A DNA stretch of 64,000 nt, from assembly GCF_039831995.1 (NCBI RefSeq), contig NZ_JBDOIO010000003.1:1364001-1428000 (forward strand), in the 5' to 3' direction. The notes beneath the pieces were generated by a model. That model searched no databases. It was not told the origin of the DNA and worked only from the letters and a program-made list of their open reading frames with translations. Made by a program: the position numbers and the translations under genes. Shown piece by piece: positions 848-7,978 of the stretch (positions are counted from its first letter, which is position 1; every line of letters begins with the position of its first letter). Origin of the DNA: Paenibacillus pabuli (GTDB lineage: Bacteria; Bacillota; Bacilli; Paenibacillales; Paenibacillaceae).

Positions 848-1273
848 TTAAACGACCTTAATCGTTCCGTATATCATGTACATGCCGCAGTGAATTTCAT
901 ATTCTCCAGGCTGCAAATTTTCATCAACCGTGTAGTAGTTGTCTCCTTTTTGCATGTACAAATCCATTCCCAGATCTTGTGAACCAACCGATTTCACATG
1001 GGTGACCGACCGGGTAAGAATAAAATTAATCTTGGTGGGAACTCCGGACTTAACCTCAATCACCCCAGGCTCAAATCCGTCATTACTCACATTGACATCA
1101 ATGACTTCATAACCTTCCAAATCCTCAGGCGTCTCCGCTTGTGCCGTGACTGAGCTTCCTGCACCTGGAGACATGTCCTTGCCCATGAAATAAACGAGAA
1201 ATGATCCGAGTAATACAATTACAGCAAGGCCCAGCGTAAGCCACGGCCACATTTTCTTGATCGAGCTATTCAT
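848..1273 (-). CDS. Membrane-anchored cupredoxin-domain protein
   Basis: A 141-residue protein with one N-terminal membrane helix (about residues 10-30) and an extracytoplasmic cupredoxin fold. Plausible copper ligands are His92 (in THVKSV), Cys129 and Met133 in the C-terminal HCGMYMIYG motif, the order expected for blue-copper-type domains. Such proteins act as copper carriers or electron-transfer proteins outside the membrane; the partner here is not evident because neighbouring genes are unrelated. It appears to be a single gene with its own terminator. Whether it binds copper or only has the fold cannot be settled from sequence alone. Confidence 0.85.
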   Translation of the reverse strand: MNSSIKKMWPWLTLGLAVIVLLGSFLVYFMGKDMSPGAGSSVTAQAETPEDLEGYEVIDVNVSNDGFEPGVIEVKSGVPTKINFILTRSVTHVKSVGSQDLGMDLYMQKGDNYYTVDENLQPGEYEIHCGMYMIYGTIKVV

Positions 1274-1499: not shown

Positions 1500-2456
1500 T
1501 TAAGAGGAATACTGGGGTGTGCTTCGACTGCGTTTCAGCCGCATTTTATATAACTCCGGCAGTCCTACGCCGATTAGAACTACAATAACGCCAAACCATT
1601 GCAGTCCGCTGACATGCTCATGAAGTACAATGGATGATAACAGCACCGCAACCGGAAGTTCTACCGCACCCAGAATACCTGCCATATCGCCCCCAATATG
1701 AGGAACCCCTATGGCGAACAGGACTGGCGGAATGAAAGCTCCGAAGAAACCGAGCAGTAAACCGAACACCAGCAGCTGGCTCCAGATCAGTCCGTTAAAC
1801 AGGAATGTCGGCGGGAACAGAATACAGAGCAGAATCAACCCGCCAGTAACCATCCACGCGCTGCGAAAAGCAGGATGTGCCGATGGAACCGCTTTGCCGC
1901 TGAACAGTACAAACAGTGAATAACTCACAGCCGCCATTAATCCAAGTGCAATGCCGAGACCGTTAAATTCGCTCAGCCCCTGTTCCAGGAATCCTGCAGC
2001 AAGGAGCGTGCCTCCGAACAGGATAATCAGTGTGAGGAAGGTTACTTTGTCTGGACGTTGGCGTTTGCTTACTGCCTGAATCAATACGCTGATCCATGTA
2101 AACTGAAACAGCAGAATAATCGCAAGCGATGCCGGAATGTAACGTAGTGACTGATAGTATACCAGGCCTGTTATAACCGTTGGTGTTCCGGCAGCCATTA
2201 ACAGTAGACGCTGCTTCCATGTCAGTCGCGTAAACACACGGGTCGCAGCCGCTGATGTTTTGCTATCGGTCTGTGATCTGCGTTTTGTTTTAAATTTCGT
2301 GTATAATGCCAGCAACCAGGACAGGATGAATCCCGTGACCAGCTGTGAACCGACAACCTCTCCGAGTTGATATCCTTCACCGTATGCCAGCACAACTATG
2401 GTTGACAAGATGCCATAGCTCATTGCACCAGCGAGAACGGACAAATAGTATTTCAT
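1500..2456 (-). CDS. EamA/DMT-family transporter under riboswitch-like control
   Basis: An integral membrane protein of 318 residues with two EamA repeats and about ten hydrophobic helices, typical of drug/metabolite exporters. I place the start at the ATG at 2456 because GGAGG lies nine bases upstream; an upstream in-frame ATG at 2495 lacks such a site. The 5' leader contains a consensus-like promoter, a purine-riboswitch-like aptamer and an overlapping terminator. This layout is known for the purine efflux gene pbuE of Bacillus, so export of a purine or related compound is a reasonable inference, not a demonstrated role. It is transcribed alone. Confidence 0.9.
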   Translation of the reverse strand: MKYYLSVLAGAMSYGILSTIVVLAYGEGYQLGEVVGSQLVTGFILSWLLALYTKFKTKRRSQTDSKTSAAATRVFTRLTWKQRLLLMAAGTPTVITGLVYYQSLRYIPASLAIILLFQFTWISVLIQAVSKRQRPDKVTFLTLIILFGGTLLAAGFLEQGLSEFNGLGIALGLMAAVSYSLFVLFSGKAVPSAHPAFRSAWMVTGGLILLCILFPPTFLFNGLIWSQLLVFGLLLGFFGAFIPPVLFAIGVPHIGGDMAGILGAVELPVAVLLSSIVLHEHVSGLQWFGVIVVLIGVGLPELYKMRLKRSRSTPQYSS

Positions 2457-2534
2457 TATGAATAAACCTCCTGATGATCGATAATACGTCCGCATGTTTA
2501 CTCCATGCCAAGGTCACAACTACCATCCAAACGC

Positions 2535-2590
2535 AAAAAATCCTAACTTCGAGCAAGGAATGAACGAAATTCCTTGCATCGTAGTTAGGA
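2535..2590 (-). terminator. Leader terminator acting as riboswitch expression platform
   Basis: A long hairpin: 8 bp (2583-2590 with 2541-2548), an A.A mismatch, 3 bp, a bulge and then 9 bp (GCAAGGAAT with ATTCCTTGC), followed on the minus strand by TTTTTT at 2540-2535. It sits about 80 bases before the transporter start. Its 5' arm contains the 3' strand of aptamer helix P1 and part of P3, so aptamer and terminator cannot form together. Confidence 0.85.
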
Positions 2591-2652
2591 AGTATAGGCT
2601 TCCCGTAGAGACCCTCGCCCTGTGTACACTTTTGGCCTGCGAGGTTATACGA
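2579..2652 (-). ncRNA. Purine-riboswitch-like aptamer (variant, guanine-type core)
   Basis: On the minus strand the purine-riboswitch core can be read in order: P1 strand TCGTA, junction TAA, P2 strand CCTCGC closing with GCGAGG, junction GTCTCTAC, a P3 hairpin GGGAAG/CTTCCT, then AACTACGA, which closes P1. The residues matching the ligand contacts U22, U47 and U51 are kept, and the position that sets specificity is C (guanine-type, not adenine-type). It departs from the norm in the loops: the P2 loop is about 20 bases and the P3 loop 6, with an extra A before the 3' junction. The overlap with the terminator predicts an ON switch. Class assignment is by eye. Confidence 0.72.
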
Positions 2653-2697
2653 AATGAAGTATGCTTTTGTGATGTTACGTATGTGACGACTTTTCAT

Positions 2698-2726
2698 ATA
2701 TTACATGGCAGGTGAGATGGTGTCAA
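2698..2726 (-). promoter_or_regulatory. Sigma-A promoter of the riboswitch/transporter transcript
   Basis: TTGACA (2721-2726) and TAATAT (2698-2703) are separated by exactly 17 bases on the minus strand. Transcription would begin near 2690, about 40 bases before the aptamer. Confidence 0.85.
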
Positions 2727-2794: not shown

Positions 2795-5002
2795 TCATTC
2801 AGGAGATTCCCATGCCAGCGTTTGTTCCAAGCCCTTCTGCAAACCTTGCAGATCCAAGCCATCCACGGCAAAGGCTTCCCGGATCAATGGCGGAGCCACA
2901 AATTCATCATATTTGCCAAGATACGGCGCCTCGTCCTCCGCCAGCAGTCCTGAAGCATCATCAACGGTTCTGCATTCACTCATAATCTCTGTCAGCAGTG
3001 TACGTGCATCCACTTTACCGGAGACGACAAAATAATACGGCTCCATGGGCACAACTGAACGCAGCGCAAGCTTGTCAGACAGATTATGTTTCATCAAACG
3101 TTCCAGAGTTCGGAATGATTTGCTTCCCACCCAAGGGAGAACGTATAGGGAATCACCGCCAGCTGGAATAACGACCTGCTTCAGCAATCCACTTTCCCTT
3201 GCCAAACGGCGCGCCCGCTCCAATCGATTCACCGCTTGTGGAGACAGATAAGGATAGATGACTGAATCCGACAGAACCTCACGCATTTTCTGAATGACCA
3301 GCGTATGAATGTCACCCCCCGCTCCAAGCCATAGGGTATCCACTTTGCCTTTGGCTGCCTTCACATACACGGCTTTATGTTTATGATCCACTTCTTCCAC
3401 TTTCCAGAGCTTTCCTGCAAGCGAAAAACAATAACCGGGTGGTGGAACCGTCGTGATTGAACCGATTTCCTCTGAACCATTCAGTACCTTGTGTTCCTCA
3501 TCATCCTTGAAAACTGCGTAAAATCGATAATTATTCACCGTTTTCTCGCCAGTCAGCCCAATGATTAATGTTCGTTCTTCGGTCCATTGCAGATGATCCG
3601 TCTCGATCAGATAATTCAGGAAAGTCTGGTACTGATCGGCCCGGATCTGGCTGAACGGCGCAAGGGACAGCACGGCATATGCCAGTTCGCGAGGCTCTGC
3701 CTCCCCCATGCTTTTCAGCATGCTCATCGTCTGATGGTAGAGAACACCCATTGGCATTTTACGAGCCTCAAGCGGTTCGACCCACTTGGTCTTCACATAC
3801 AGTTCTATGACTGCAATGGCACGCAGCAGCGTCCATGGCATGCGAGCCGGAAGCTGTGCTTCTTCGTCCTCTTCTTCCGGACATACGAATAACATTTCCG
3901 AAGCCATGTCATCACGTCTTCCAGATCTCCCCAGACGCTGGACAAAACTTGATGCGCTGTAAGGGGCTCCGAGCTGCACAACCCGCTCCAATTCACCAAG
4001 ATCAATCCCCAGCTCCAGCGTTACAGTTGCGGCGGCTACTGCAGGCCCGACGCCAGTTCTCAGGGCAGCTTCGGTTTCCTCTCTGAGCATGGCCGAAATG
4101 CTGCCATGATGCACATGAAACACATCCCTTTCCTCTCGTCGTGCTGCGACTCTCCTCATTTCAAGGATGGTCACCTCGGCATCCGTCCGGCTGTTAGTGA
4201 AGATCAGCGCCTTTTTGCGATATGTACTCTCATAGATGAAATCGTAATAGGCTTTGCGCGCATTGTGTAGATGTTCGGCCTGCTCCTCATCCCGGGCATC
4301 AGGAAAAGAGAAATGCTCTACCCGCAAGCGCAATTTGCGGCCGCCTGGAGAAGATACAACATCCACCCCTTCCTGCGTTCCGGCTGCCAGCCATGAAGTT
4401 GCTGCCTCATAATCACTCAGTGTCGCAGATAATCCAACTCTGCGGGGTCTGCAGCCAGCCATCCGTTCAATCCGGGCCAGTTCACTCAATACCTGAATAC
4501 CCCGATCTGCTCCCATGAAAGCATGGACCTCATCAATAATGACGTACCGCAAGTCATGAAACAGCGCCGGTATGGCATTCGGACGGTTCATGAGTAAACC
4601 CTCGAGCGATTCCGGTGTAATCTGGAGCACTCCAGACGGATTACGCACCAAACGTGTTTTTTCCGCTTGAGGCACATCCCCGTGCCAATGCCACACCGGT
4701 ATGTTGCCCTCAGATAATAAATCCTTCAGGCGCTCAAATTGATCATTGATCAGTGCCTTTAGCGGTCCGATGTACAGAATGCCCACCGATTTGGAAGGAC
4801 GTTCATACAGCTCGGTCAGTGCAGGAAAAAAAGCTGCCTCCGTCTTGCCTGAAGCCGTTCCTGCCGCAATCAGCATATGATGCGGGGTGTCGAAGCATAT
4901 ATGACAGGCCTCAATCTGCGCAGGGCGGAGCGAATCCCATCTTTTTTTATAAATAAATTCCTGGACAAATGGGGCCAGTCTGTAAAAAGGGTTATCACTC
5001 AT
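2795..5002 (-). CDS. Lhr-like DEVH-box superfamily 2 helicase
   Basis: A 735-residue helicase with all core motifs: motif I GTASGKT (48-54), Ia PLKALINDQ (80-88), II DEVH (157-160), III SATL (192-195), V near TLELGIDLG (328-336) and VI QRLGRSGRR (355-363). DEVH rather than DEAD/DEAH, and the region after motif VI, resemble Lhr-type helicases such as BrxHI of BREX systems. It is the last gene of a three-gene operon; its ATG overlaps the ATPase stop codon (ATGA), so translation is coupled. The role is probably ATP-driven DNA or RNA remodelling together with the two upstream products. The exact substrate is unknown. Confidence 0.9.
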   Translation of the reverse strand: MSDNPFYRLAPFVQEFIYKKRWDSLRPAQIEACHICFDTPHHMLIAAGTASGKTEAAFFPALTELYERPSKSVGILYIGPLKALINDQFERLKDLLSEGNIPVWHWHGDVPQAEKTRLVRNPSGVLQITPESLEGLLMNRPNAIPALFHDLRYVIIDEVHAFMGADRGIQVLSELARIERMAGCRPRRVGLSATLSDYEAATSWLAAGTQEGVDVVSSPGGRKLRLRVEHFSFPDARDEEQAEHLHNARKAYYDFIYESTYRKKALIFTNSRTDAEVTILEMRRVAARREERDVFHVHHGSISAMLREETEAALRTGVGPAVAAATVTLELGIDLGELERVVQLGAPYSASSFVQRLGRSGRRDDMASEMLFVCPEEEDEEAQLPARMPWTLLRAIAVIELYVKTKWVEPLEARKMPMGVLYHQTMSMLKSMGEAEPRELAYAVLSLAPFSQIRADQYQTFLNYLIETDHLQWTEERTLIIGLTGEKTVNNYRFYAVFKDDEEHKVLNGSEEIGSITTVPPPGYCFSLAGKLWKVEEVDHKHKAVYVKAAKGKVDTLWLGAGGDIHTLVIQKMREVLSDSVIYPYLSPQAVNRLERARRLARESGLLKQVVIPAGGDSLYVLPWVGSKSFRTLERLMKHNLSDKLALRSVVPMEPYYFVVSGKVDARTLLTEIMSECRTVDDASGLLAEDEAPYLGKYDEFVAPPLIREAFAVDGLDLQGLQKGLEQTLAWESPE

Positions 5003-6354
5003 AATTCAAATTCCGCCAAAAAATCGTCCATCTCATCTGGAGCAGATGATGCAGCTGTCCCTTTTCCGCCATTCTGCGACTCGGATGCCCGTTCACCAAG
5101 CAATTGGGCATAGGTCACTTCCGGATTCTGGTGGAGCGTATGCAGCACATCCATAAAATCTCTCACCACTTCACGGGTCGTTAACAGCTCATCCGCCCCG
5201 AGACGTTTCACCGCCGTTTGCATGAAATCAACCAGATCTTCATCGGTCAAGCTGGCACTATAGCCAAAATGAAGGGCATGAATCTGACGCAGCTTCTGCA
5301 GTAGGATGAGAATCTCTTCATGGGATAACATCGCAAGCTTCAGAATAGGTCCTGTATAATTCGCATATTCTCTCGCTGCATACCGCCCATCGATCAGTCT
5401 GGAACGAAGCGCCTCATAACTGAACAATCCACGTCTCTCATCCTCCACAAATTGCGGCGTACCGCCGACAAATATGCCCAGGTGCTCCGCCTTGCCCTGC
5501 ATTGTGTCATTAAACATGGTCAGCAGCTTCTCATAATTGCTTTGCCGGGAGATACTGTTGGTAATTTTGTACAAATTCACCGCTTCATCAATAAAGAGCA
5601 GCAAGCCTTTATAACCAATCCGTGCCGTAAACTCCGACCATAATTTGAAATAATCATACCAGTTGTCATCATCGATGATCACACCGACAGCAAGCTCCTT
5701 TTTGGCTTCCGTCTTGGTAGCATACTCCCCTCTGAGCCAGCGAAGCGCAGCCTGTTTACGATCATCATCTCCCAGCTTGTATCCGTTCCAGTACGAAGCA
5801 AGAACTTTGGCAAAATCAAAGCCGTGCACCAGGTTCTGCATTGCGTTCGTGACCGCGTAAATCTGCTTCTCCACCTCTGACGGCAGGGCAGGATCATCAG
5901 GACGCAGACCCTGGTTCTGCATCGTTTGCTGCTGCAAGGCAGCAATCCACTTCTGCAGGATCGGTTCAAGGGCTCCGCCATCCGGGCGTGTGCGTGTGGA
6001 CAGACGGGTCATCAGCTCACGGTACGTTGCGAGTCCTTGACCTTTGGTACCTACCAATCTGCGCTCTGGTGACAGGTCTGCGTCTGCTACAACGAATTCC
6101 CGGTCCATCGCATAGTTGCGAATCATTTGTAAAAGAAAGCTTTTCCCGCTGCCGTACCTTCCAGTAATAAGCTTAAACGCAGCTCCGCCTTCGGCAATGT
6201 TATCCAAATCACGCAATATCGCGTCCACTTCGGGCTTGCGGCCGACGGCAATCTGCTCCAATCCGATTCGCGGAACAACGCCAGCTGTCAATGAATTCAC
6301 CAGTGCGGTGGTCAGCCGTTTCGGTATTTTTAGATCTGTCACTTGTCCTCTCAC
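4999..6354 (-). CDS. BrxD-like (DUF2791-type) P-loop ATPase
   Basis: A 451-residue ATPase with Walker A GRYGSGKS (65-72) and Walker B LLLFIDE (251-257), followed by GGTPQF, which could act as the sensor strand. The overall pattern matches the BREX-associated ATP-binding family (BrxD/DUF2791). It lies between a TerB-domain gene and an Lhr-like helicase gene, with 4-bp ATGA overlaps at both ends. The proposed combination of a TerB protein, this ATPase and an SF2 helicase was described in comparative work on Ter-linked DNA-processing systems. It probably acts as a loader or switch for the helicase; this is inference. Confidence 0.85.
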   Translation of the reverse strand: MRGQVTDLKIPKRLTTALVNSLTAGVVPRIGLEQIAVGRKPEVDAILRDLDNIAEGGAAFKLITGRYGSGKSFLLQMIRNYAMDREFVVADADLSPERRLVGTKGQGLATYRELMTRLSTRTRPDGGALEPILQKWIAALQQQTMQNQGLRPDDPALPSEVEKQIYAVTNAMQNLVHGFDFAKVLASYWNGYKLGDDDRKQAALRWLRGEYATKTEAKKELAVGVIIDDDNWYDYFKLWSEFTARIGYKGLLLFIDEAVNLYKITNSISRQSNYEKLLTMFNDTMQGKAEHLGIFVGGTPQFVEDERRGLFSYEALRSRLIDGRYAAREYANYTGPILKLAMLSHEEILILLQKLRQIHALHFGYSASLTDEDLVDFMQTAVKRLGADELLTTREVVRDFMDVLHTLHQNPEVTYAQLLGERASESQNGGKGTAASSAPDEMDDFLAEFEL

Positions 6355-7940
6355 CTCTTCACATGTTCAAATACATTCATATATTCAGAAACAATCCGGT
6401 CACTGTCGATCAGCAGGTCACCGATGGTTTCCATAGCCAGATCGTTAACTTCATCAAGCAGAAGTGCAGGCATCGTTCCGTATTGTTCGGCCACACGATT
6501 CAGTTCGGTATCAGGCTCGTCACCGAGCAGAGCATGAATGGTCAGCACATGCTGAGGAGCGAGCTTCTCCGCCAAGTGGAGCCATTCCTCATCCAATTCC
6601 CCAACTGCCGCTTCCTCCCACTGCAAACGGGATAAAGTATCACTCGTCCCGCTCGCTTGAGCATTTGCAGCTAACGACTTGTCCGCCTTTAGTTCGAGAG
6701 TAAGGGCCTCTCCCAGCCCAGTCATGTCGTTTAAAGTTTCGCTTGCTTCTCCCTCAACCGCAGCTTGATAGTCAGAAGGAACCGCTTCATGTCCCGAAAC
6801 GACGACATCCTCCTCAATTGTTAAAGCCTTGCGGACATATTCGCTCTCCTGCTGTAATGACGTCAATTTCTCCGCATCTATTCGAATCATTGGCCTCTCG
6901 GCAGCTTCTGCTTGTTCCGCAGCAAAAACCTTATCCAGATAACGCTCGATCAAGCCTGCCAGTTCAGGTTCCAAAGTCTTTCCGCGCAATCGGCCTCTGA
7001 AACCGAGCTGCTCACGACACTTGTTTTCGGTACATCGAAATATGCGTGTCACCAATTGTACAAAATCCGAATTTTCTCCAACGGGAACATAGGATAACGG
7101 TACTGTTTTCCCGTAGAGGGTATCGTCATATACCGCTTTGCGAAACAGCACCCGCTCCGTCGTTCTAACGTTATCCTGTATAAATTGGTCCGCGATCCCT
7201 GCCTGACGTGTACGCAGCAGATAAGCATCAGCGAGCACCATGACCTTGGGAATAACTTTTTCGAGAACTTCCTGGCCACCATCCCTGTAAAATTTGCTGA
7301 GCGTGATGTCATAGTCGTAATATCGCCGCAGCAGATTCAGCGAAACGTCGGAGATGCGATTTTGCAAAATCCGATGCATCTCCATATCCTGTATCTCGGC
7401 GGGAAGATACCCGCTTGTGATGTCCAAGATCTCGGACAAAGGCAGATCCAGATGATGAACCAGCATGTAATCCAAGAGCCATTCCTGCATATACACGTCC
7501 AGCTGCGGATTCCGGGCACGGTAATGTATCCATAACTGCTTCAGTTGATTGTAGCCTGCTTGAGGATCTTTCCATCCTACTCCGTTAATCAGCTCATACG
7601 TATGAACAAACAGGTACGACAGATCCGTATCCGGGAATCGCCCTTGCCTGACTTCCGACCTCCAGTACAAGTACCACTGACGCTGGGACTCGTTCATGAC
7701 ACCGTAAGTCGGCCAGTAGCTCATAAAGGGAACAAACGGAGCAGGATCTCCCTCCGTTTCTTCAAGCTGCCGTGCCTCTTCCACAAATCGCTTTTCCGAA
7801 GACAATATCCCACCGCCAGCCTGGCCTGAATGAAATTGCCTATGAGGAATTGTTGAACGTTCAGGCACCGGAACAGCCGAAGTTGGCTCTTCGGTCAGAT
7901 CAATCTCCATAAATTCCAACTGTCTTGAATGGTCTTTCAT
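6351..7940 (-). CDS. TerB-N/TerB-C domain protein
   Basis: A roughly 530-residue cytoplasmic protein, first gene of the three-gene module. The segment containing YWPTYGVMNESQRQWYLYWR and PDTDLSYLF (about residues 75-110) is a clear TerB_N signature, and the acidic C-terminal half fits TerB_C. The N-terminal 60 residues are low in complexity. I prefer the ATG at 7940, which has AAGGATGGTGA about ten bases upstream; an in-frame ATG at 7958 directly abuts that site. TerB proteins are linked to membrane or metal stress and phage response. The 3' end overlaps the ATPase start by ATGA. Confidence 0.85.
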   Translation of the reverse strand: MKDHSRQLEFMEIDLTEEPTSAVPVPERSTIPHRQFHSGQAGGGILSSEKRFVEEARQLEETEGDPAPFVPFMSYWPTYGVMNESQRQWYLYWRSEVRQGRFPDTDLSYLFVHTYELINGVGWKDPQAGYNQLKQLWIHYRARNPQLDVYMQEWLLDYMLVHHLDLPLSEILDITSGYLPAEIQDMEMHRILQNRISDVSLNLLRRYYDYDITLSKFYRDGGQEVLEKVIPKVMVLADAYLLRTRQAGIADQFIQDNVRTTERVLFRKAVYDDTLYGKTVPLSYVPVGENSDFVQLVTRIFRCTENKCREQLGFRGRLRGKTLEPELAGLIERYLDKVFAAEQAEAAERPMIRIDAEKLTSLQQESEYVRKALTIEEDVVVSGHEAVPSDYQAAVEGEASETLNDMTGLGEALTLELKADKSLAANAQASGTSDTLSRLQWEEAAVGELDEEWLHLAEKLAPQHVLTIHALLGDEPDTELNRVAEQYGTMPALLLDEVNDLAMETIGDLLIDSDRIVSEYMNVFEHVKR

Positions 7941-7978
7941 TGAACTCTGTTTCACCATCCTTCATATACATCATACGA

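Follow-up and report, generated by a model that had tools for sequence, protein, structure and literature searches.

Layout of the EamA leader

We found that, on the minus strand of the window (the whole 64,000-nucleotide stretch of Paenibacillus pabuli DNA analysed here), a promoter, a purine-type aptamer and a terminator follow one another from 2726 to 2535 and are succeeded by an AGGAGG site and an EamA (DMT) transporter gene. A first-pass annotation of this DNA had named the promoter, the aptamer core and the terminator, and our reading of the sequence places each of them where that annotation had. The features of the locus are as follows.

2698..2726, minus strand: sigma-A type promoter TTGACA-17-TAATAT (-35 TTGACA at 2726-2721, -10 TAATAT at 2703-2698, 17-nt spacer)
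2578..2665, minus strand: purine-type three-way-junction aptamer, J3-1-insert variant (Rfam Purine, 36.8 bits; 97 aligned loci)
2648..2651, minus strand: P1 5' strand CGUA, pairing with 2583-2580; nearly constant among relatives
2647-2645, minus strand: J1/2 UAA, from the sequence
2639..2644, minus strand: P2 5' strand CCUCGC, pairing with 2618-2613; 3/6 pairs change on both sides
2619..2638, minus strand: L2 loop, a variable insert plus a conserved AGG (2621-2619); 6-36 nt among relatives
2605..2612, minus strand: J2-3 GUCUCUAC, with pocket positions U47, C50, U51, A52 and C53 from the alignment
2587..2604, minus strand: P3 hairpin GGGAAG-CCUAUA-CUUCCU; L3 CCU (2598-2596) able to pair with the AGG of L2
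2584..2586, minus strand: J3-1 AAC, one extra nucleotide followed by the A73-C74 equivalents (C2584 = C74, by guanine-I alignment)
2541..2590, minus strand: intrinsic terminator stem, -26.0 kcal/mol; its 5' arm overlaps the P3 3' strand, J3-1 and the P1 3' strand
2535..2540, minus strand: terminator U-run of six U, from the sequence
2467..2472, minus strand: ribosome-binding site AGGAGG, from the sequence
1500..2456, minus strand: EamA / DMT-family transporter gene, 318 aa (PF00892, 3.2e-19)

The core described in the first-pass annotation (UAA in J1/2, GUCUCUAC in J2/3 and C at the specificity position, 2584) is present, as is the consensus promoter, whose form TTGACA...TA[AG]TAT recurs 5' of the aptamer in 25/25 leaders. 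The mechanically called EamA reading frame starts upstream, at 2495, and the product shares 98% identity with an EamA protein from Paenibacillus illinoisensis. Three genes 5' of the leader (window 2795-7958, minus strand) match PADLOC SngC, SngB and SngA with E values of 1.6e-245, 6.3e-207 and 7.5e-101, a set known as the Shango anti-phage defence. Downstream of EamA lies a cupredoxin-like gene (PF13473; window 848-1273, minus strand), separated from it by a terminator-like hairpin at 1421-1440 that was matched on the plus strand and read by eye on the minus strand.

A search with the Rfam Purine model, as the first-pass annotation had proposed, returned Purine (RF00167) as the match for the window element, with an E value of 1.3e-4 in the stretch and 7.2e-4 across the whole 6.9-Mb genome. 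Its 36.8 bits lie 0.2 under the gathering score of 37, so a default Rfam scan of the window at the gathering score misses the element and reports nothing. The isolated aptamer folds no better than shuffled sequences (z -0.93, 37/200 as good), and the whole leader, 2700-2534, beats them (MFE -43.1 kcal/mol, z -3.30, 0/200), its fold being the terminator. Since the free fold of the leader is the terminator, its default state is termination. The aptamer and the terminator had been proposed to exclude each other, and the shared strand bears this out: nucleotides 2590-2580, which comprise most of the P3 3' strand, J3/1 and the P1 3' strand, also serve in the terminator 5' arm, and over 2691-2535 the free fold (-42.2) compares with -33.6 when the aptamer is forced, in which case just the inner terminator hairpin is left. 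We regard the observation as confirmed, the element being real and beyond chance.

Spread, conservation and output

A blast search with the leader over 59 genomes found it in 25, our own included, with promoter, core and terminator present in all 25. Thirteen distinct sequences formed alignment A1, which, with a single double change, varies too little to demonstrate structure, and gave the model R1, which scores the window, itself a member, at 112.8 bits. Among 295 genomes of the family, R1 matches at E <= 1e-11 in 158, a selection of these places having been inspected, and an EamA orthologue occurs at E <= 1e-90 in 159. By a reading of the two tables, these sets share 157 genomes and differ by three: G330 has the RNA and a broken EamA (L143), G141 has EamA and an RNA match that narrowly misses the cut (1.4e-11), and G154 has EamA with only a weak RNA match, the best at 1.7e-4.

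Eighty loci, a selection among the ranked matches listed, were combined with 16 earlier loci and L216 into alignment A3 (97 loci, 93 distinct rows). EamA lies on the same strand in 97/97, 76-291 nt behind the aptamer (median 101), and its best pieces are 58-100% identical to the window's, four copies being split or partial. Split or partial EamA genes behind an intact-looking riboswitch were seen at L113/L144 (G148), L142, L143, L264 and L075, and G148 also carries a full-length EamA gene at another locus. In a named collection, 106 stretches matched a strict pattern, and a motif test for EamA among the 80 matches listed found the gene following in 75 of the 80 named contigs; four others are slice-edge cuts and the last, from Paenibacillus darwinianus, has a broken EamA. 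The contig titles name Paenibacillus, Cohnella, two Bacillus sp. FJAT strains and two Caproiciproducens galactitolivorans strains, and the latter (L236, L251) carry EamA together with its riboswitch, which suggests horizontal transfer, because this species belongs to the class Clostridia.

In the wider order, EamA-type RNAs occur with the gene in two further families, and the fetched R1 matches of 45-53 bits precede a FAD oxidoreductase. Across 299 genomes of the class, only two matches fell outside the family, both of them RNAs before other genes, and the leader had no match among plasmids. The EamA-linked variant is therefore widespread and goes unannotated by a default Rfam scan. We found no literature report of an EamA-linked purine riboswitch, in a search whose coverage of PMC9295807 ended short of its gene-association figure and supplement, where an earlier mention is possible.

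In the 93 rows of A3, 99.4% of the cells are paired, compared with 38.7-52.8% in slid controls, and 59 cells carry double changes, compared with 17.4 in shuffles, a number that 0/500 shuffles reach. P2 holds 55 of these 59 cells. The third L2-L3 kissing pair is A-U in 84 rows, C-G in 5, G-U in 3 and U-G in 1, thus standard in 93/93 when a script takes the final GG of L2 as its reference; a few rows are out of place in the automatic alignment, which has 2 mismatches and 5 gaps at this pair. P1 shows change in two cells and P3 is almost constant. Both say little, and the support from covariation comes from P2 and the L2-L3 contact. The covariance among orthologous leaders that the first-pass annotation had looked to is thus present in P2 and L2-L3 and scarce in P1 and most of P3, which are nearly constant.

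The core UAUAA, GUYUCUAC and CUACG and the L2-L3 contact of the purine three-way junction are present in A3, with GUYUCUAC as J2-3 in 86/93. U22, U47, C50, U51, A52, C53 and C74 (in xpt numbering) are invariant in all 93 distinct sequences, an invariance that is partly search selection because a model built on this RNA was used to collect the rows; the invariant U51 and C74 support the earlier reading of the core as guanine-type. U22, U51 and C74 are numbered as in PMC9295807. Counted with its preceding nucleotide, J3-1 is UAAC in 75 rows, UUGC in 10, UUAC in 4, UAGC in 2, and ACGC and CAAC in 1 each, and L3, which starts CCU or CCG, has 6 nt in 85 and 5 nt in 8. The extra A that had been noticed before J3/1 (2586/2585) is one A more than in guanine-I, and the extra nucleotide is conserved. 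The first P3 position is A, G or U and can pair in 88/93; if it were counted as J2-3, the variant would be extended by one nucleotide in J2-3 and by two in J3-1. As for the loops that had been called non-canonical, L3 is indeed short but retains the CC for L2, and conservation does not extend to the 20-nt P2 loop with GTGTACAC. A role for GTGTACAC as a functional palindrome was rejected, L2 being replaced in relatives or reduced to as few as six bases (AACAGG, L127); as an insert, the long P2 loop is dispensable.

The U-run of the terminator was found by script in 89/93 distinct leaders, and the other four have the same arm with a degenerate U-run. Scored against its own aptamer 3' strand, the arm reaches a mean of 8.4 (range 6-12, with 76/89 at 8 or more), compared with a mean of 5.1 and 3.6% at 8 or more for shuffled 5' segments. 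When arms were swapped between 5' segment types, 20 of the 24 cells scored 3-6.3; the four exceptions (8-9.1) equal or come near own pairs through G-U tolerance, namely TTCCTAGC segments with TTCCTAAC arms (8.57 vs. own 8), TTCCTTGC segments with TTCCTTAC arms (8.75 vs. own 7.7) and the single TTCCTAACTGCG segment (9.1 and 8 vs. own 10). The arm often changes together with J3-1, with GUAAGGAA, GCAAGG and GCUAGGA arms lying opposite UUAC, UUGC and UAGC, and five UUGC- or ACGC-type leaders (L124, L125, L137, L139 and L144) score only 3-5, in another pairing register. No such arm was found in the two guanine-type leaders tested. The terminator arm mostly co-varies with J3-1, with compensatory changes and some exceptions, and the architecture of the leader points to an ON switch acting on transcription.

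Computation shows the aptamer and how well it is conserved, the competition of two pairings for one strand, and the gene linkage. Together with the score, the covariation, the invariant pocket and the terminator-arm co-variation, they support what the first-pass annotation had proposed, a variant purine riboswitch with an ON-type terminator before EamA. We assign a probability of roughly 0.7 to the reading that the leader works as an ON riboswitch through transcription termination, that its aptamer is a J3-1-insert variant of the guanine-riboswitch three-way junction, and that it serves one EamA gene at the checked loci. That a conserved leader and terminator without ligand control merely resemble an aptamer by chance is very improbable, given an invariant pocket beside a hypervariable L2, a covarying P2 and kissing pair and a mostly co-varying arm, even with P1 and P3 hardly varying and an isolated aptamer that folds like its shuffles.

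Comparison with known purine riboswitches

The EamA-type RNA shares with guanine-I (Rfam RF00167, Purine) the three-way junction, the U22/U47/U51/C74 pocket and the contact of L2 GG with L3 CC, and unlike guanine-I it has one extra J3-1 nucleotide and no C54-G72 closing pair (each in 93/93), a 5-6-nt instead of a 7-nt L3, a third kissing pair, an ON output and an exporter-type gene. It is possible, if on balance doubtful, that these RNAs are ordinary guanine-I riboswitches with drifted loops, a neutral insertion and an ON output that amounts to one more expression platform. The pocket bases are those of guanine-I, and EamA-type RNAs straddle the Rfam Purine cut-off, with EamA-type places scoring 37.0-48.6 bits and two of the three EamA leaders scanned passing it (L127 48.5 and L010 38.7 bits). 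Drift sits poorly, however, with the extra J3-1 nucleotide, the short L3 and the missing C54-G72 pair all being kept across EamA identities of 58-100%, and with the three clear purine elements of the same genome (G000), which score 80, 71 and 66 bits with Purine but 29 bits, no match and 35 bits with R1. By eye, the genes behind these three are purE-, xpt- and permease-like. Among guanine-type elements, R1 gave 35 bits for L003, 29 for L154 and L001, 22 for L145 and no match for L002 and L157.

As yardsticks for the other variants we used sister-genome elements with features described for published variants, which were likened by description and not by published sequences. Guanine-II-like elements (U51, CUACA, CCAGGC) precede a phosphoribosyltransferase gene at L213 (36.3 bits, cut-off 26.3), a weaker phosphoribosyltransferase match at L224 (24.9, under the cut-off), similar-looking frames at L217, L220 and L223, and a Rieske oxygenase gene at L210. 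Xanthine-II-like elements (U51G) lie before a Rieske oxygenase gene at L205 and an allantoinase gene at L219, and also occur at L212, L214 and L221. The 8-oxoguanine variant has C74 and AACUACG at J3-1/P1 in common with the EamA type. In two 8-oxoguanine-like examples (L208 and L222) J2-3 is shortened to GCUCUAC, in contrast to the GUYUCUAC of the EamA type, and the gene behind L222 encodes an 8-oxoguanine deaminase (598.1 bits, cut-off 532); an 8-oxoguanine variant of the guanine riboswitch is also named in PMC9295807.

With R2, a model of 11 guanine-II- and xanthine-II-like sequences, four of the sequences that it was built from reach 93-101 bits, as they must by its construction, and the window scores 22.4, 14 other EamA loci 22-42 and three guanine-type elements 25-38 bits. 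R1 gives 25-28 bits for the six guanine-II-like elements, no match for the five xanthine-II-like elements and 45-53 bits for the FAD-linked group described below. These R1 and R2 scores set the EamA type apart as a separate variant. By the same scores it stands at about the distance from guanine-II that guanine-I does, the FAD-linked group being its nearest relative, and it fits none of the guanine-II-, xanthine-II- and 8-oxoguanine-like RNAs in sister genomes.

A somewhat unlikely alternative is that the extra J3-1 nucleotide reshapes the pocket so that a C74-pairing purine or purine derivative other than guanine is sensed, such as xanthine, 8-oxoguanine, a nucleoside or a toxic analogue; the RNAs would then be a ligand class of their own, and EamA the exporter dedicated to it. 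According to PMC9295807, J3-1 insertions mark the xanthine-II and guanine-II variants, and xanthine-II shares with the EamA type such an insertion, the ON architecture and the same bacterial family. The EamA type has its own J3-1, mostly UAAC or UUGC, and a gene that differs from those of guanine-I and of the guanine-II-, xanthine-II- and 8-oxoguanine-like elements in sister genomes. However, the guanine-I contact bases U22, U47, U51 and C74 are invariant, and guanine-II is described in PMC9295807 as binding guanine despite its insertions. Xanthine-II, moreover, has U51G and a two-nucleotide J2-3 insertion in that description (PMC9295807), in contrast to the U51 found in 93/93 EamA-type sequences.

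Membership in the published guanine-II class is improbable. PMC9295807 describes for guanine-II several features that the EamA type has or may have: U22, U51 and C74 kept, a possible one-nucleotide J2-3 extension, an ON direction and an occurrence in Paenibacillus. The single-nucleotide J2-3 insertion fits GUUUCUAC plus N, though N may be a P3 pair because it is able to pair with the opposite base in 88/93. Filing the RNA under guanine-II was nevertheless rejected: J3-1 has 4 nt, mostly UAAC, against the 6 nt of CCAGGC, with a 7-nt L3, in the six guanine-II-like RNAs of sister genomes, and R2, built on such sister-genome elements, gives the window 22.4 bits, far from the 93-101 bits of four of its own members. 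The genes differ as well, those of the guanine-II-like elements being phosphoribosyltransferase-like and phosphoribosyltransferase genes being the commonest for guanine-II in PMC9295807, as against EamA here. A 2'-deoxyguanosine type, at which the first-pass annotation had hinted, found no support and was rejected, U51 being invariant and Purine being the only model reported when 2495-2790 was scanned with Rfam at E up to 10, a weak test, since it hides members of the clan that score lower.

Another set of variant purine aptamers lies before a FAD-dependent oxidoreductase gene in order relatives (L331-L334, L339, L343 and L345-L347) and also at L340, L341 and L353; the oxidoreductase assignment comes from PF21688 in L333, the only one scanned, and from similar protein starts in the others. 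In the nine order relatives, UAUAU replaces UAUAA in 8/9 and C53G (CUAG) occurs in 7/9, J3-1 is (C/U)AGC, and a terminator-like arm is able to pair with the aptamer 3' strand (ON type). UAUAU in J1-2 was also seen at L206 before a Xan_ur_permease gene, at L352 before a 137-aa permease-like frame (J3-1 AAC) and, in our own genome, at L002 before an xpt-like gene; UAUAU on its own is therefore no class marker. A purine aptamer with UAUAU at L209 precedes an amidohydrolase-like gene (by eye), and adenine-type (U74) elements precede a deoD purine nucleoside phosphorylase gene at L211 and a secreted-protein-like frame (by eye) at L155. We tentatively speculate that the EamA RNAs form a separate class on the purine scaffold, in which the J3-1 insertion gives an undescribed specificity and EamA is its exporter, and that together with the FAD-linked group, most of which has C53G, they represent a second unrecognised radiation of the guanine riboswitch in Paenibacillus relatives.

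Ligand, transporter and meaning

Returning to the proposed ON riboswitch of guanine-type architecture, we predict that it binds a ligand and that this ligand is guanine or a close 6-oxopurine, because of C74 and U51. Without ligand, the downstream arm would capture the P3 3' strand, J3-1 and the P1 3' strand to form the terminator. A docking ligand would pair with C74 and be held by U22, U47 and U51, the junction closing and L2 and L3 kissing; the bound aptamer would then withhold its 3' strand, leaving the inner hairpin of the terminator alone and away from the U-run, and polymerase would read through into EamA.

The adenine pbuE riboswitch of B. subtilis, which has U74, is a terminator-type ON switch before a purine efflux gene, and the EamA leader follows the same logic with C74 instead of U74; the U74 of the adenine riboswitch is absent from A3, where C stands in 93/93. 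PbuE is an MFS protein and EamA a DMT protein. The architecture of ykkC subtype 2d RNAs is unrelated to the purine scaffold. These RNAs resemble the present case in being orphan riboswitches upstream of EamA/TauE genes, as described in PMC7266159.

The ON direction and the exporter family together predict removal of the ligand, and its export by EamA is what the family would suggest. EamA would probably export a purine or related compound and act as an overflow or detoxification valve, with a logic like that of PbuE. Direct support for purine transport by EamA appears thin. In one case, G031, a genus member without the RNA, a distant EamA homologue (47% identity) starts 37 nt behind a gene for purine nucleoside phosphorylase I of the inosine/guanosine type (349.8 bits, cut-off 293.35). 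At 20 loci of EamA homologues of other families (44-54% identity, from 93 matching genomes), no purine riboswitch was found at the Rfam gathering score or with R1 at E up to 10, and by eye the neighbours are mixed (permease-like beside L363, and peptidase-, amidase- and QueD-like); hence no substrate follows from these loci. No solved structure was similar to the EamA sequence at E up to 1. At L355 (G519), two tandem EamA homologues lie without a purine riboswitch by Rfam or R1.

Our findings place a guanine-type ON architecture on an efflux-type gene, in a genome whose other three purine elements precede purE-, xpt- and permease-like genes, and add one more case in which nature has redesigned the best-studied riboswitch pocket. 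Such RNAs can sit just below the Rfam threshold and so stay unannotated. With an RNA switch spread across the family and tied to one transporter, the ligand of the RNA would name the probable substrate of EamA.
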